A DNA stretch of 64,000 bases from Methanolacinia petrolearia DSM 11571 (GTDB lineage Archaea; Halobacteriota; Methanomicrobia; Methanomicrobiales; Methanomicrobiaceae). Position 1 is the stretch's first letter; every line of letters starts with the position of its first letter. Positions 28,718 through 40,371 of this stretch are shown here, in pieces. Both the position numbers and the translations under genes were made by a program. The stretch is from positions 806,001 through 870,000 of the forward strand of contig NC_014507.1 in the NCBI RefSeq assembly GCF_000147875.1, in the 5' to 3' direction. Below the pieces are notes generated by a model that made no database searches, had not been told where the DNA came from, and worked only from the letters and a program-made list of their open reading frames with translations.

Positions 28718-29536
28718 ATGCCCGAAGATCTCTACAGGACGATACTGAACGATGACACGCCGCTGTTTTACGAGAGGCTCTCGGATTACCTGAGCGTACT
28801 TGGGAATCCGACAAGGCTGAAGATATTAAAGATAATCGAAAAAAATCCGAAGGACATCCGGGAGATCTCGAATGAGATCGGGACGAGCTACGAAAACACG
28901 AAAAAACACCTCAATAAACTTCTTAAAATCGGATTGATCAGAAAAGATGCCGGTGTCGGAAAGCCTACTTCAAAGGGTATACATGCGGTCTGGAAGTATT
29001 CAACGATTCCGGGCGGCCTTGAACTTATTGCACGGAATGTCGGCAGTTTCTGTAATATGGAGATTAAAAATCCCGAACTTGCAAGCCGGCTCGTAGAGAT
29101 CAGGAAGATGATTGATGATGAAATATCATCGGATATGCCTGTTCTTGTTCTTCTCGGGGGGACGGATGACGGCAGGGTCTACACGGTCAGAAAGAATACG
29201 GTTAGACTCGGGAGGTATGACCCGTCTGCAAAGGGAATTTTTGACGAGGAGAATGACATAGTCCTGGATGACGATTACAGGGGCGTTACAAGGATTTCGA
29301 AACCGCACGCCGTAATAATCCTGGAAGACGGTGTATGGTGCATCATGGATGAAGGAAGTACGGGCGGGACCTCGGTAAACGGCAAATTGATTGGAAAGTC
29401 CGTTAGAACCGTTCTTTCAGACGGGGACATGATCGAACTCGGGGCCGGTGAAGGTATGGCTTCGTTTGTCTTCCACCTGAAGAAGAATTCGGATACTGCT
29501 GATGAAAATAACCTCAGTAGTGGTGATGAGATATGA
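28718..29536 (+). CDS. Winged-helix protein with C-terminal FHA domain
   Basis: A 272-residue soluble protein joining two domains. Residues about 20-105 form an ArsR-like winged helix (LSVLGNPTRLKILKIIEKNPKDIREISNEIGTSYENTKKHLNKLLKIGLI). Residues about 150-255 form an FHA phosphothreonine-binding domain: LGRYDP with G165-R166, RISKPHAVI with S194 and H197, and GSTGGTSVNGK with N221-G222. It overlaps the following Ser/Thr kinase gene by 4 bp, so the kinase probably phosphorylates it or a partner that the FHA domain reads. This gives a complete membrane-to-DNA signalling chain. All key FHA residues are present. Confidence 0.9.
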   Translation: MPEDLYRTILNDDTPLFYERLSDYLSVLGNPTRLKILKIIEKNPKDIREISNEIGTSYENTKKHLNKLLKIGLIRKDAGVGKPTSKGIHAVWKYSTIPGGLELIARNVGSFCNMEIKNPELASRLVEIRKMIDDEISSDMPVLVLLGGTDDGRVYTVRKNTVRLGRYDPSAKGIFDEENDIVLDDDYRGVTRISKPHAVIILEDGVWCIMDEGSTGGTSVNGKLIGKSVRTVLSDGDMIELGAGEGMASFVFHLKKNSDTADENNLSSGDEI

Positions 29537-30693
29537 ATAAAGATCGTTTTCTCACCGGAACGTTGCCGGCTTTGCTAATATTGATCATGCTTTCCATAGT
29601 TTTTATTCCGGTTCAGGCAGCTTACGGCAGCCAGTCGTCGATGAATGATCACTCTATGGGAATGGGTCATGACGATGAGAATGAGTCATATGAAATGCCG
29701 GGGATGTCTGCAGCAGGTTCCGGTTCAGGCATTCAGGCAATACTGCCGTTAATCTACGGTCTCTTTGCGGTTGTGATCGTTCTTGTCCTCGTTATCCTCT
29801 ATGTTGTTTTCATAAGACGCAGGCATGAAAAGCCCGGCGATGAAGAGGCATGCCCCGCAACTCCAGATGAGAATTATTCCTGCGGAATTGCCGGGGGGAA
29901 TGAAAAAGTTTTTGCGGCTGATTTCCCCGCAGAACTTAATGAAAAGTATTCTGACCCTGTTCTTATAGGAAAGGGCGGGTTGTCGTCCGTCTACTCCGCG
30001 AAGTCGAAGGAGACGAGTGAGACGGTGGCTGTAAAGATCCCCACGAAGAGAGACGAGAGATCCGGCAAAGTGTTCCTCCAGGAGGTAAAGATCTGGGAGG
30101 AGCTCGCCCACCCGAATATTGTCTCCCTGAAATCTGTCAATGTCTTTCCTGTCCCCTATGTCGAGATGGAATATGTCCCCGATTCACTTGAGACGATAGA
30201 AAAACCGGTGGACAGAGATGTAGCGATCCAGGTTGCAGTCGGAGTTTTAAGGGGTCTCTCCTACGCCCATAAAAAAGGAATAATCCACTGCGATATAAAA
30301 CCGGCCAATATCCTGATCGATGATGATTTCACCCCGAAGATTACCGACTGGGGGGTGGGGAGATCCAAAACTGGAGGCGGAACAGAATTTCACGGTTATA
30401 CTCCTGCTTTTGCCGCACCTGAACAGGTTTCTCCCGGGGTTCCCGGCTGCACGGAAAGGACCGACATATTCCAGGTAGGGATGCTTATAATACGGATGGT
30501 CTGCGGGAAGACGGCCTTTGATATAAATTTCGGGAAGGACTCGAATACTTACCTTCAGGACTGCATAAAGGATGAAAGGCTCGGTGCTGTGGTTTTAAAA
30601 TGCATCAGGAAAGATCCCGGGGAAAGATACGGCAGTGCAGAGGAGCTTTTATCTGAATTGTTGTCTATCTCAGGGAATACGGTCCTGAACTGA
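29533..30693 (+). CDS. Transmembrane Hanks-type Ser/Thr protein kinase with Met/His-rich ectodomain
   Basis: A 386-residue protein. Residues 1-30 are a signal or first TM, 31-67 an outer loop containing MNDHSMGMGHDDENESYEMPGM, 68-94 a TM, and about 140-380 a cytoplasmic kinase. Kinase motifs: GKGGLSSVY loop (146-154), Lys168 in VAVK, a helix-C Glu near 184, HCDIKPAN (252-259; HCD replaces HRD), DWG (272-274; in place of DFG), and APE (295-297). All catalytic residues are kept, so it should be active; without the HRD arginine it may not need activation-loop phosphorylation. The Met/His/Asp-rich loop resembles copper-binding segments of CopB/PcoB-type proteins, suggesting a metal input. It is coupled to the HTH-FHA gene. 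Confidence 0.9.
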   Translation: MNKDRFLTGTLPALLILIMLSIVFIPVQAAYGSQSSMNDHSMGMGHDDENESYEMPGMSAAGSGSGIQAILPLIYGLFAVVIVLVLVILYVVFIRRRHEKPGDEEACPATPDENYSCGIAGGNEKVFAADFPAELNEKYSDPVLIGKGGLSSVYSAKSKETSETVAVKIPTKRDERSGKVFLQEVKIWEELAHPNIVSLKSVNVFPVPYVEMEYVPDSLETIEKPVDRDVAIQVAVGVLRGLSYAHKKGIIHCDIKPANILIDDDFTPKITDWGVGRSKTGGGTEFHGYTPAFAAPEQVSPGVPGCTERTDIFQVGMLIIRMVCGKTAFDINFGKDSNTYLQDCIKDERLGAVVLKCIRKDPGERYGSAEELLSELLSISGNTVLN

Positions 30694-30727: not shown

Positions 30728-31036
30728 TCAGATGCAGGGGCAGTTGCCTGAGTTGGCGTTTCCGGAACCGTATCCTGTCCCGTTAAGGGTGCATGTGCTG
30801 TTGTTCAGGCAATATTCCCCGGAATTCCGGAAGCAATAGTTTTCAGCAATCTGGCATGAATTTCCGGTGCACTGGCCGTTAACATACGAATATTGGGCAC
30901 AGTCCTGGGAGTATGCATGTGCCCCGTGGCATCCGCCGGTGTTTCCTCCCTGGTTATAACCTGCACTTGCAGGCATTGCCACCAGTGCCACCGCAAGGAG
31001 CACGAGGCCTGCGATTAATACAATCTTTCTCTTCAT
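30728..31036 (-). CDS. Cys-rich small exported protein
   Basis: About 102 residues: signal peptide MKRKIVLIAGLVLLAVALVAMPASA, then a mature part of about 77 residues with nine cysteines spread evenly, rich in Gly/Asn/Tyr/Gln. No family recognised; it could bind metal or be disulfide-bonded. AAAGGAG is nine bases before ATG 31036, which I prefer to ATG 31045, where the ribosome site would touch the start codon. It is convergent with the kinase gene. Confidence 0.7.
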   Translation of the reverse strand: MKRKIVLIAGLVLLAVALVAMPASAGYNQGGNTGGCHGAHAYSQDCAQYSYVNGQCTGNSCQIAENYCFRNSGEYCLNNSTCTLNGTGYGSGNANSGNCPCI

Positions 31037-31199
31037 CTTTTTCATCTCCTTTAATATTAGAAACGGGAAATCTTGTGCACTGATATCAGGCAGCGTTCTT
31101 CTCCGGTTTCTGCAAATTATACTATGGCCCGTTTTCCTTTTATATTGGCAAAATGCAGTCGGTTTATTATATGAACCGACCGGTTCCATATATGAAATT

Positions 31200-31792
31200 A
31201 TGAATGGCGGAGGAATGGATCGTTTTCTCGAAGAGCACCCTTACGTGGATTTTTCTTCCCCAAATGTCAGGGCGAAGGCGGAAGAGCTCTTTTCAGGGGT
31301 GAATAGTCCTGTCGAAAAAATTGTCCTGTCGAAAAAGCGGAGATCGCATATGAATTCGTCCGTGACGAGATCCCGCACAGCTTTGATATCAACGCTTCAG
31401 TGGTAACGGCGAAGGCGTCGGATGTCCTTTCGGCTGGAACCGGAATATGCCATGCGAAGGCAAATCTTCTTGCTGCCTTTCTCAGGAGTGCTGAGATTCC
31501 GGCGGGATTCTGCTACCAGCACTTAACACTCGCAGACGATGATTCTCATGGTTACTGCGTGCACTGCTACAATGCGATTTTTCCCGACGATCACTGGATC
31601 TTCCTTGATGCCCGCGGCAATAAAGAGGGAGTGAATGCACAGTTTTCACCGGGTGAGCCGGTCCTTGCTTTTCCGTGCCGCAAAGAGTATGATGAATATT
31701 TCTGGTACGGGATCTATGCTTCGCCGCAGATGCATATCATGAAGATGCTGGAGTCTTCAAAAACGATACCTAATGTATATCCGGGAATATGA
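31200..31792 (+). pseudogene. Transglutaminase-like protein broken by a 17-bp tandem duplication
   Basis: The first frame (from ATG 31200) reads MDRFLEEHPYVDFSSPNVRAKAEELFSGVNSPVEK and then goes out of frame. GTCCTGTCGAAAAA occurs twice, starting at 31306 and 31323, 17 bp apart. Removing one 17-bp copy restores a continuous frame through AEIAYEFVRDEIPHSFDIN into VTAKASDVLSAGTGICHAKANLLAAFLRSAEIPAGFCYQ, the transglutaminase-like core with catalytic Cys (GICHAK), His (HCYN region) and Asp (FLDARGN). The family was about 190 residues. The break is recent because the rest is undamaged. Confidence 0.88.
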
Positions 31793-31879: not shown

Positions 31880-32431
31880 TTATTCCTTCCTGAGGAAGAG
31901 TGCGGCTGCCGTTCCCAGTGCGATCAATGAGACGAGTGCCCCGAATCCAGGTGTTGTTGTCGTCGTCGGCGGGGTTAAGGTAGCGGTTGAAGTTTTACTT
32001 GCCGTAACTTCCCCCAGTAATTCGAATGTTGTCGCCGCTGTTGAATCTCTTTCTACGGATTCAATTCTGACATCGTATTCATCAGGTATGAACCCTGATG
32101 GATCGACGTTTATGGACCATTTGTTGTCTGAATCACCTTCAACAACTTTGACCACCTCCGACAGTCCGCTGTACTCTTCGCCCTCTGATTTCTTTCCCGT
32201 TGAGAATGACGTGGACACTATTTCAACGATGAGGTTATCGTCCACAGGGAGATTCGTGGTTCCTGAAATTGTGAACTGATTACTGGTGTAGTAATAACTG
32301 TTCGCAGTGATCCGTATCCACGGATCATCACCATCGGTTGTTGTTTCTTTTGTTGTCACTACTGCAGATACAGAGGATGCAAGCAAAAAGAAAATGAATA
32401 CGAATATGATTAAACGGTTTTTTGTATTCAT
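31880..32431 (-). CDS. PGF-CTERM surface protein
   Basis: A 183-residue protein with a signal peptide (LIIFVFIFFLLASSVSAV), a beta-rich outer domain (about 25-145) and a Thr/Pro-rich spacer ending in the sorting signal PGFGALVSLIALGTAAALFLRKE: PGF, hydrophobic helix, basic end. Archaeosortase A removes this tail and attaches the protein to a membrane lipid. The outer domain starts with KETTTDGDDPWIRI and has ISGTTNLPVDDNLIVEI strands, shared with the neighbour at 32545. Function unknown; probably an S-layer-associated protein. Confidence 0.87.
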   Translation of the reverse strand: MNTKNRLIIFVFIFFLLASSVSAVVTTKETTTDGDDPWIRITANSYYYTSNQFTISGTTNLPVDDNLIVEIVSTSFSTGKKSEGEEYSGLSEVVKVVEGDSDNKWSINVDPSGFIPDEYDVRIESVERDSTAATTFELLGEVTASKTSTATLTPPTTTTTPGFGALVSLIALGTAAALFLRKE

Positions 32432-32544
32432 GTTTCAAGTTTTTTGTTAGGATATAATAAAATATAGTGGTCAAATGACTACTCTTGTGTCGATTTATTA
32501 ATTCTGACATAACTCCGGCGCGAAATTTGAAAAAAATTATGAAA

Positions 32545-33159
32545 TCATTTCTTCATGAGGAAGAGTGCGGCTGCCGTTCCCAGTGCGATCAATGAGGCGA
32601 GTGCCCCGAATCCTGGTGCTGCTGTCGTCGCCGGCGGGGCTTGAGTGCTTGTCGTTGTTACTGCTGTTGCAGAAGATGTCGGGGATGATACGGTTATGGT
32701 TGGAGTGGTGGTTTTAATTGCCGTTGCCGTCGCACCTTTTTCCAGCAGGTCGAATGATGTTGTTGCTGTTGAAGTGGTCTCGACTGATTCAACGTTTACA
32801 ATGTATTCGTCGGGTTCGAAGGTTGATGTATCGATATCAACGGACCATTTGTTGTAGGGGTCTCCCTTTACGACTTTGAGGATCTCAGACTGGCCGGAAT
32901 ATTCTCCGGCATTTGATGCGCCCGGTGAGTATGACATAGACATTGTCTCAAAGATAAGAGAATAACCTATAGGGAGGTTTGTGGTTCCTGAAATTGTGAA
33001 CTGCTCGCCAACGTAGTGTTCATGGCCACCGGTCATATCGACCCTGATCCATGGATAATCACCATCAATTGTTGTTTCTTTTACTGGTGTTGCTGCAGAT
33101 ACGGCTGATATAAGCAAAAATAAAATAAAAATAGGTAAAATTAACCGGTTTTGATTCAT
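32545..33159 (-). CDS. PGF-CTERM surface protein, paralogue
   Basis: A 204-residue paralogue of the 31880 gene: same signal peptide type, same outer domain opening (VKETTIDGDYPWIRV), matching FTISGTTNLPIGYSLIFE and KWSVDIDTSTFEPDEY stretches, a longer Thr/Ser/Pro-rich stalk (about 145-180; likely glycosylated), and PGFGALASLIALGTAAALFLMKK. The C-terminal coding DNA of the pair is almost identical while the outer domains differ, suggesting tandem duplication with gene conversion at the anchor. Confidence 0.87.
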   Translation of the reverse strand: MNQNRLILPIFILFLLISAVSAATPVKETTIDGDYPWIRVDMTGGHEHYVGEQFTISGTTNLPIGYSLIFETMSMSYSPGASNAGEYSGQSEILKVVKGDPYNKWSVDIDTSTFEPDEYIVNVESVETTSTATTSFDLLEKGATATAIKTTTPTITVSSPTSSATAVTTTSTQAPPATTAAPGFGALASLIALGTAAALFLMKK

Positions 33160-39153: not shown

Positions 39154-40131
39154 TTAATCCGCTCCGGTAAATCTCCACCTGTCCGGTGGAATCGTTATCC
39201 TGAAACAGGCGCCTTCGCCCGGAACCCCGTTCTCGCTGATAGTGATATCGGTAATTCCCAGGATCTCCCTGACTAGGAAAAGTCCCAGTCCTGAATTTTT
39301 TCCGTATGAGTGATTGAATATCTTCTCTTTTTCATCTTCAGGAATGCCTGGGCCGTCGTCACGGAAGAACAGGCAGCCTGTTTCGTCTTCCCGGGAGAAA
39401 GACAGGCTGATGGCGGACGCACCTGTTGCATGCCTCATAGTGTTGTCCATCAGGTTGTAAAGCACTCTTTCAAACATCGAGTCTGCGTAGATCTCGATCT
39501 CCTCTTCAGGATCTATTGCCCTTAGCTGATGAAACCAGGAATTGCTCAGGTAAACCTTCCGGAAGGTCTCCCTAACGTCGATCCATGCAGGAGCGTTTAC
39601 CCCGATGTCCTGGTAATCCCTCGTGCTTATTACGACGTTGTTCAGGCTGCGCACCGATCTCTGGATCTTCTGAACATAACTGTTATTCTCGGGATTCTTC
39701 CGGACAGCATCCGCATCAGCAATCATCTCCGTATAGGCCGTAATGACAGTCAGCAGGTTCAGCATGTCGTGTCTCGTAATGCTTGAGAGCATATTGAGCT
39801 TTTTATTGGATTTGAGTATCGACGTCTCCATCCTTTCGATCTCGTTCTGTTTCCGGTCGAGCTGGAGGATCAGCCTTTCCGTTCTTAACAGCGGTATGGA
39901 TGCGATTATTACAGCCAGGATCGTGGTGACGATTATTGTTACTATATGGGATGTCCAGATTGTGATGCCGGGGAATATTGCCTGCTTGGATAATTCGTAA
40001 GCCGACATGAATATGAAAGTCAGGATGAAAACAATCGAGATATTCTTCAAAAACCGTGTTTTGGCCTTCTGGTGCTCATTTAAGAATTCTATATTTTTCT
40101 CTTCACGCACCCTTTCTTCCCGGTTTTTCAT
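39154..40131 (-). CDS. Sensor histidine kinase
   Basis: About 325 residues with two TMs (about 30-50 and 58-78), almost no outer loop, a coiled-coil (about 80-108), a dimerisation/phosphoacceptor helix with SSITRHDMLNLLTVITAY (His of TRHD), and a HATPase domain with N box YNLMDNTMRHA, G1 RDDGPGIP and G2 GKNSGLGLFLVREIL. This is a methanogen-type kinase. With so small an outer loop it may sense within or at the membrane. No response regulator lies next to it. ATG 40131 is preferred to the TTG two codons upstream. Confidence 0.9.
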   Translation of the reverse strand: MKNREERVREEKNIEFLNEHQKAKTRFLKNISIVFILTFIFMSAYELSKQAIFPGITIWTSHIVTIIVTTILAVIIASIPLLRTERLILQLDRKQNEIERMETSILKSNKKLNMLSSITRHDMLNLLTVITAYTEMIADADAVRKNPENNSYVQKIQRSVRSLNNVVISTRDYQDIGVNAPAWIDVRETFRKVYLSNSWFHQLRAIDPEEEIEIYADSMFERVLYNLMDNTMRHATGASAISLSFSREDETGCLFFRDDGPGIPEDEKEKIFNHSYGKNSGLGLFLVREILGITDITISENGVPGEGACFRITIPPDRWRFTGAD

Positions 40132-40371
40132 TCGCAATTAAATTATTTTTTCAACATATATACTGTGCTTTATGATTCTCAACGGCCGTATGGGCGAACA
40201 TGCCTGTGGCGGTGCTGTCCTGATTTATGCTCGCTTTTATCGAAAAGCCACCTGAAATATTATTCTCTGACGGATATATTTCCTGATTCCAGTTTGTTTT
40301 GTCAACTGCATATATCGGAATCAAAAGAACTTTTTCAGTTCAGGACATACAGGTGTTAAGGTGATCTTACT

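Follow-up and report, generated by a model that had tools for sequence, protein, structure and literature searches.

A putative membrane Ser/Thr kinase and FHA-domain regulator circuit in Methanolacinia petrolearia and other Methanomicrobiales

Signalling from Ser/Thr kinases to transcription is poorly known in archaea. In the PknH-EmbR system of Mycobacterium tuberculosis, the FHA domain of the transcription factor EmbR is needed for its phosphorylation by the kinase (PMC4601284). GarA is phosphorylated in its unstructured N-terminal tail, and the modified tail is bound by the FHA domain of the same protein (PMC5448819). The ArnA-ArnB system of the Sulfolobales comprises a zinc ribbon plus FHA protein and a vWA partner (PMC6509490, PMC10470591), and FHA proteins among archaea were stated to be conserved only in Crenarchaeota in a 2023 paper (PMC10470591). 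No paper describing an archaeal HTH-FHA/kinase system was found in the open-access literature; to that extent the claim of a preliminary description of the present locus, that such an arrangement is undescribed in methanogens, holds, with PknH-EmbR as a close bacterial analogue.

In this study, a window of 64,000 nucleotides from the genome of Methanolacinia petrolearia, containing an HTH-FHA gene followed by a transmembrane kinase gene, was analysed together with related loci (Table 1). The comparison points to a methanogen order equipped with dedicated kinase/FHA-regulator pairs, in whose proteins a phosphosite and a docking motif can be proposed, together with an operator and a target gene. 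We consider it moderately probable that the pair belongs to a dedicated Methanomicrobiales circuit of membrane kinase and FHA regulator that includes a switch at Thr8, a tandem operator and a Cys-rich target.

Table 1. Coordinates of the features in the window
Feature	Position	Strand	Details
HTH-FHA regulator gene	28718..29536	+	272 aa; Pfam HTH_5 2.8e-9, FHA 5.7e-15; AF2 mean pLDDT 85
Thr8 codon	28739..28741	+	sole invariant residue of the N-tail; candidate phosphosite/FHA ligand
ArsR-type winged-helix domain, residues 30-76	28805..28945	+	Pfam HTH_5/ArsR, E 2.8e-9
FHA domain, residues 163-242	29204..29443	+	Pfam E 5.7e-15
Transmembrane Ser/Thr kinase gene	29533..30693	+	386 aa; Pfam Pkinase 2.8e-40; nearest solved relatives PknB-type
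Extracytoplasmic loop, residues 35-69	29635..29739	+	Met/His-rich; predicted disordered (pLDDT <50 at 33-68)
Kinase catalytic domain, residues 139-380	29947..30672	+	Pfam, conserved residues and AF2
C-terminal T383-V-L-N	30679..30690	+	candidate autophosphorylation/FHA docking motif; resembles regulator T8-I-L-N
Secreted Cys-rich protein gene	30728..31036	-	102 aa; convergent with kinase; beside the pair in 4/4 subtype genomes
TATA-like element AATATAAAA of the Cys-rich gene	31138..31146	-	aligned in all four orthologous promoters; downstream of operator
Tandem operator (candidate)	31161..31186	-	GAACC-GGTC-GGTTC at 31173-31186 and half-site AACC at 31161-31164, 21 bp away

The 4 bp overlap of the two genes was confirmed, and the reading of the first product as an ArsR-type winged helix joined to an FHA domain agreed with the Pfam matches. 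The AF2 model of the regulator is confident outside the tails, and the winged-helix fold, which none of the listed fold-search matches covered, is predicted from the sequence match and the AF2 secondary structure. The recognition-helix region, SYENTKKH, is nearly invariant in the family alignment. Against the ArsR/SmtB metalloregulator model NF033788 the regulator scores 32.7 bits, below the cut-off of 55. Assignment of the second domain to the FHA family is consistent with its Pfam match and with structural Z scores up to 16.6; the fold search gave values of about 15-17 to the FHA domains of DgcB, GarA and EmbR, and OdhI, GarA and phosphopeptide-bound DgcB were among the nearest structures. 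Residues R166, R192, H197, D211, S214 and N221 are invariant in the family alignment (n = 85), position 194 is Ser or Thr in 83/85, and the core phosphothreonine-binding Arg and Ser and the conserved His are thus present. The Asn of the canonical TNG motif is replaced by Gly216 in the window protein and by Gly in 77 of the 85 domains, so the affinity for phosphopeptides could be low.

The kinase has two predicted transmembrane segments (hydrophobic stretches 7-25 and 76-94), and the Met/His-rich segment SSMNDHSMGMGHDDENESYEMPGM at residues 35-58 lies between them, in line with the outer loop proposed earlier. The Pkinase match covers residues 143-366 (E 2.8e-40, Pfam). The catalytic loop reads HCD (H252-C253-D254) and the metal-binding motif DWG (272-274), and K168, E184, K256, N259 and APE are all present, so that the protein, as had been suggested, looks like an active kinase despite these variants. 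The family match and the catalytic Lys, Glu, HxD, Asn and DxG place it among the Hanks-type kinases, with activity as a prediction. K168, E184, D254, K256, N259, D272 and the DWG motif are invariant across 84-85 family kinases; HRD is the usual form (74/85), and HCD is confined to the four kinases of the window type. The kinase domain is modelled confidently by AF2, and the loop (33-68) and the juxtamembrane segment (99-126) fall below pLDDT 50.

Three HTH-FHA genes were detected in the M. petrolearia genome, each adjoining a kinase gene. A whole-genome scan found exactly three FHA domains, all inside these regulators, and three strong Hanks kinases, all in the pairs, plus one weak match above the cut-off and one below it. 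The regulator is present in 154/232 genomes of the class and in 102/135 of the better ones; among the matches listed for 393 genomes of the phylum, it occurs only in Methanomicrobiales, with members in Methanolinea, Methanoregula, Methanoculleus, Methanofollis, Methanomicrobium and Methanocalculus. The search of other archaea for the same gene pair, proposed in the preliminary description, thus recovered it throughout the order. This order-wide FHA family contradicts the Crenarchaeota-only statement (PMC10470591). A kinase is the next gene in 85 of 86 testable cases, namely intact genes with downstream room, once frameshifted fragments and genes at contig ends had been removed; for another named set, which overlaps this one in part, the figure is 68/81, with eight genes at contig ends and five without a kinase. 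Because the pair is conserved across Methanomicrobiales, gene order indicates that it is not a chance arrangement. The window pair, one of three in its genome, is by the same comparison neither unique nor a copper curiosity, and is part of a Methanomicrobiales-wide system. HTH-FHA genes with no kinase detected immediately downstream are L174, L204, L205, L158:5980-6780 and L148, and these five count against the circuit. One contig labelled as a Thermoplasmata archaeon (L143) holds a Methanomicrobiales-like pair, probably through a binning error.

The regulator and kinase trees gave a mirror-tree correlation of 0.60, whereas swapping partners among same-genome paralogues gave a mean of 0.35 and a maximum of 0.54 (0/1000 swaps reached 0.60), which indicates that the trees of the two proteins co-evolve. 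The window subtype comprises four genomes (G000, G001, G003 and G009), with clade support of 1.0 in both trees. Near-universal adjacency, co-evolving trees, kept residues and a candidate operator together give comparative support to the earlier proposal of a dedicated path from kinase to FHA regulator. Its further suggestion, that the path stands in place of a two-component system, is not supported and was rejected, a histidine kinase being encoded in the same window at 39154-40137.

Thr8 of the regulator is present in 83/83 aligned sequences, always the same number of residues ahead of the first helix, and the next residue is nearly always Leu, Ile or Val; the tail is otherwise poorly conserved and of low AF2 confidence. 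In the kinases, the motif T-[VIL]-[VILMAF] occurs in the juxtamembrane segment or C-tail of 60/85, compared with 15 for shuffled segments, 12 with Ser in place of Thr and 17 with the motif reversed. Among non-redundant kinases it was found in 18/28, against 4.0 in shuffles (maximum 10 in 1000), 3 for Ser and 3 for the reversed motif, in data where redundancy was reduced rather than eliminated and which overlap those used to define the motif in the same analysis; this overlap applies equally to the operator counts below, and both were checked against shuffled sequences, reversed motifs and genomes that lack the regulator. The strict motif is absent from 25/85 kinases, which counts against the circuit. 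The window pair carries T8-ILN in the regulator and T383-VLN at the end of the kinase. Thr8 and the kinase threonine-aliphatic motif are therefore likely phosphosites read by the FHA domain, and by analogy with GarA a phosphothreonine/FHA switch in the N-tail may operate in the regulator.

The secreted protein encoded convergently with the kinase contains nine Cys and has no family match in Pfam or NCBIfam. Its gene was found only in the four subtype genomes and is absent from the other 76 of 80, and the wider neighbourhood of the pair differs between G000/G001 and G003/G009; the gene is a probable target or partner of the window pair. Further along the window, a transglutaminase-like gene at 31200-31792 (+) seems split across frames (31200-31406 and 31400-31792), with a Transglut_core match only in the 31400-31792 part, and may represent a frameshift or pseudogene. 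Two similar secreted proteins, each with a PGF-type C-terminal anchor, are encoded in tandem at 31880-33159 (-), and the sister species has a third copy (L041).

Alignment of the Cys-rich promoters from the four subtype genomes revealed a palindrome, GAACC-N4-GGTTC, with constant arms and a variable spacer. Each of these genomes holds only two or three exact copies, about the number expected by chance, and one copy lies upstream of the Cys-rich gene in 4/4. Independently, the same palindrome emerged as the inverted repeat that most often precedes HTH-FHA genes in the order as a whole. Of 122 non-redundant upstream regions, 21 contain the form KAACC-N4-GGTTM, whereas dinucleotide shuffles gave 0.125 (maximum 1) and a coding control none; spacer length 4 was seen in 23 and any other length in at most three, and a second half-site stands at 21 bp in 19 counts and at any other distance in at most two. 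The strict match is absent from 101/122 upstream regions, which counts against the circuit. Several tandem sites are located in the gap that separates the regulator gene from a divergent gene for a small exported protein, and another precedes a PP2C-regulator-kinase operon. In the M. petrolearia genome, two of the three strict tandem sites overlap coding sequence and may be there by chance, as may some sites in coding sequence elsewhere. The candidate operator stands upstream of the TATA-like element of the Cys-rich gene, and this geometry suggests activation. No motif common to the promoters of the window pair and the Cys-rich gene was found, and inverted repeats were not enriched between regulator and kinase genes. 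An inverted repeat, CGGTATATCAAATATACCG, precedes the window pair by 58 bp, but it is disrupted in the sister species and missing from the other two genomes, and was rejected as an operator.

Taken together, these elements may be assembled as follows. The kinase would sit in the membrane with its short extracytoplasmic loop outside and, once activated, would autophosphorylate, including at the threonine-aliphatic motif, which is T383-VLN in the C-tail here and lies in the juxtamembrane segment in most relatives. The FHA domain of the regulator would dock on the kinase phosphothreonine, and the kinase would then phosphorylate Thr8 in the regulator N-tail. Phospho-Thr8 could bind an FHA domain, either its own or that of a partner molecule, thereby releasing the regulator from the kinase and switching its DNA binding at the tandem KAACC-N4-GGTTM palindromes, which are spaced 21 bp apart. 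The promoter controlled in the window subtype would be that of the secreted Cys-rich protein gene; in other subtypes the putative operator precedes the regulator's own operon.

A different use of the same docking motif is conceivable, in which the regulator, bound by its FHA domain to the phosphorylated tail of the kinase, stays at the membrane until dephosphorylation by a PP2C phosphatase frees it for DNA; Thr8 would then serve in binding or folding and not as a phosphoswitch. Such sequestration would suit the candidate motif in the kinases and the NosD-type loci, where a PP2C gene lies directly upstream of the HTH-FHA gene, but no PP2C gene adjoins the window pair and the invariance of Thr8 within so variable a tail would be left unexplained; we regard it as unlikely. 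In M. petrolearia itself, the PP2C gene L037:9329-10036 (-), at genome positions 2645328-2646035, is directly upstream of another HTH-FHA/kinase pair, one with a NosD-like kinase ectodomain, and a degenerate tandem operator is found about 140 bp upstream of it. The PP2C genes beside some pairs also speak for the Thr8 circuit. Another PP2C gene beside a weak kinase match (genome 1027801-1029326) seems to belong to a separate system. The palindrome might instead serve another regulator, leaving the HTH-FHA protein with unrelated targets. In favour of the circuit, all 16 HTH-FHA genomes tested have tandem sites (38 in total; 2 in the reversed control), against 5 of 16 in which no HTH-FHA gene was detected. 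The 10 sites in the latter group (2 in the reversed control) speak for another regulator; so does the lack of a KAACC-N4-GGTTM-type site upstream of the window's own pair, which also counts against the circuit. This assignment nevertheless appears improbable in view of the independent order-wide enrichment of palindrome, spacer and 21-bp register upstream of regulator genes and of the perfect co-occurrence of the Cys-rich gene with the window subtype. In genome G138, with no HTH-FHA gene detected, four tandem matches occur, and a diverged member may be present.

The outer loop had been likened to copper-binding segments, and a sensor may be envisaged in which binding of extracellular Cu(I) or some other metal to the loop activates the kinase, while the secreted nine-Cys protein encoded by the linked gene handles the same metal. 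Loss of the loop in orthologues was to count against this idea, and the outcome was divided: the loops of G000, G001 and G009 contain Met and His, two of these orthologues being at 83% and 52% kinase identity, but that of G003 contains a single His and lacks Met. When G000 is compared with G001, the loop (83%) and the kinase domain (86%) are about equally conserved, and Met-to-Val and Met-to-Ser changes appear already within the genus. Other family kinases have low-complexity, multi-transmembrane, NosD-like or PEGA ectodomains, and most of the other short ones are of low complexity and lack a Met/His motif. With a loop predicted to be disordered and no recognised metal-handling gene adjoining the pair, the copper-sensor reading is unsupported after the orthologue comparison and we hold it very doubtful, a metal role being possible for the window subtype. 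Scarcely better are the prospects of a broader scheme, in which receptor-kinase/FHA-transcription-factor circuits with interchangeable ectodomains form an order-wide modular counterpart of two-component systems and the window loop and Cys-rich product provide extracellular metal or redox feedback.

The Bdellovibrio protein DgcB is the best structural match, and its FHA domain was solved with its own phosphorylated N-terminal peptide; judged by the entry title, it is not a DNA-binding regulator, unlike the HTH-FHA protein. With ArnA-ArnB the locus shares an archaeal FHA regulator and, as predicted here, its control by a Ser/Thr kinase (FHA Z 14.6), but no zinc-ribbon family match was found in the HTH-FHA protein in Pfam and its partner is a kinase, which sets it apart from that type. 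The likeness to GarA/OdhI with PknB/PknG lies in a candidate N-tail Thr in an FHA protein, an FHA fold at Z of about 16 and a kinase nearest to PknB-type structures; GarA binds enzymes rather than DNA and has no winged helix, whereas the regulator has one of ArsR type. PknH-EmbR appears to be the functionally closest system, since both consist of a transmembrane Ser/Thr kinase and a transcription factor with an N-terminal winged helix and a C-terminal FHA domain (PMC4601284), and here too the gene for a DNA-binding FHA protein is genetically linked to that of a membrane Ser/Thr kinase. PknH has a folded sensor domain, whereas the window kinase has a short, probably disordered loop. The EmbR FHA domain matches that of the regulator at Z 15.4, but the overall architecture differs: EmbR combines an OmpR/SARP winged helix with a BTA domain, whereas the M. 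petrolearia regulator has an ArsR-type HTH_5 and no BTA match in Pfam. Because of this domain make-up the regulator is not an EmbR, and by analogy it would work like one.
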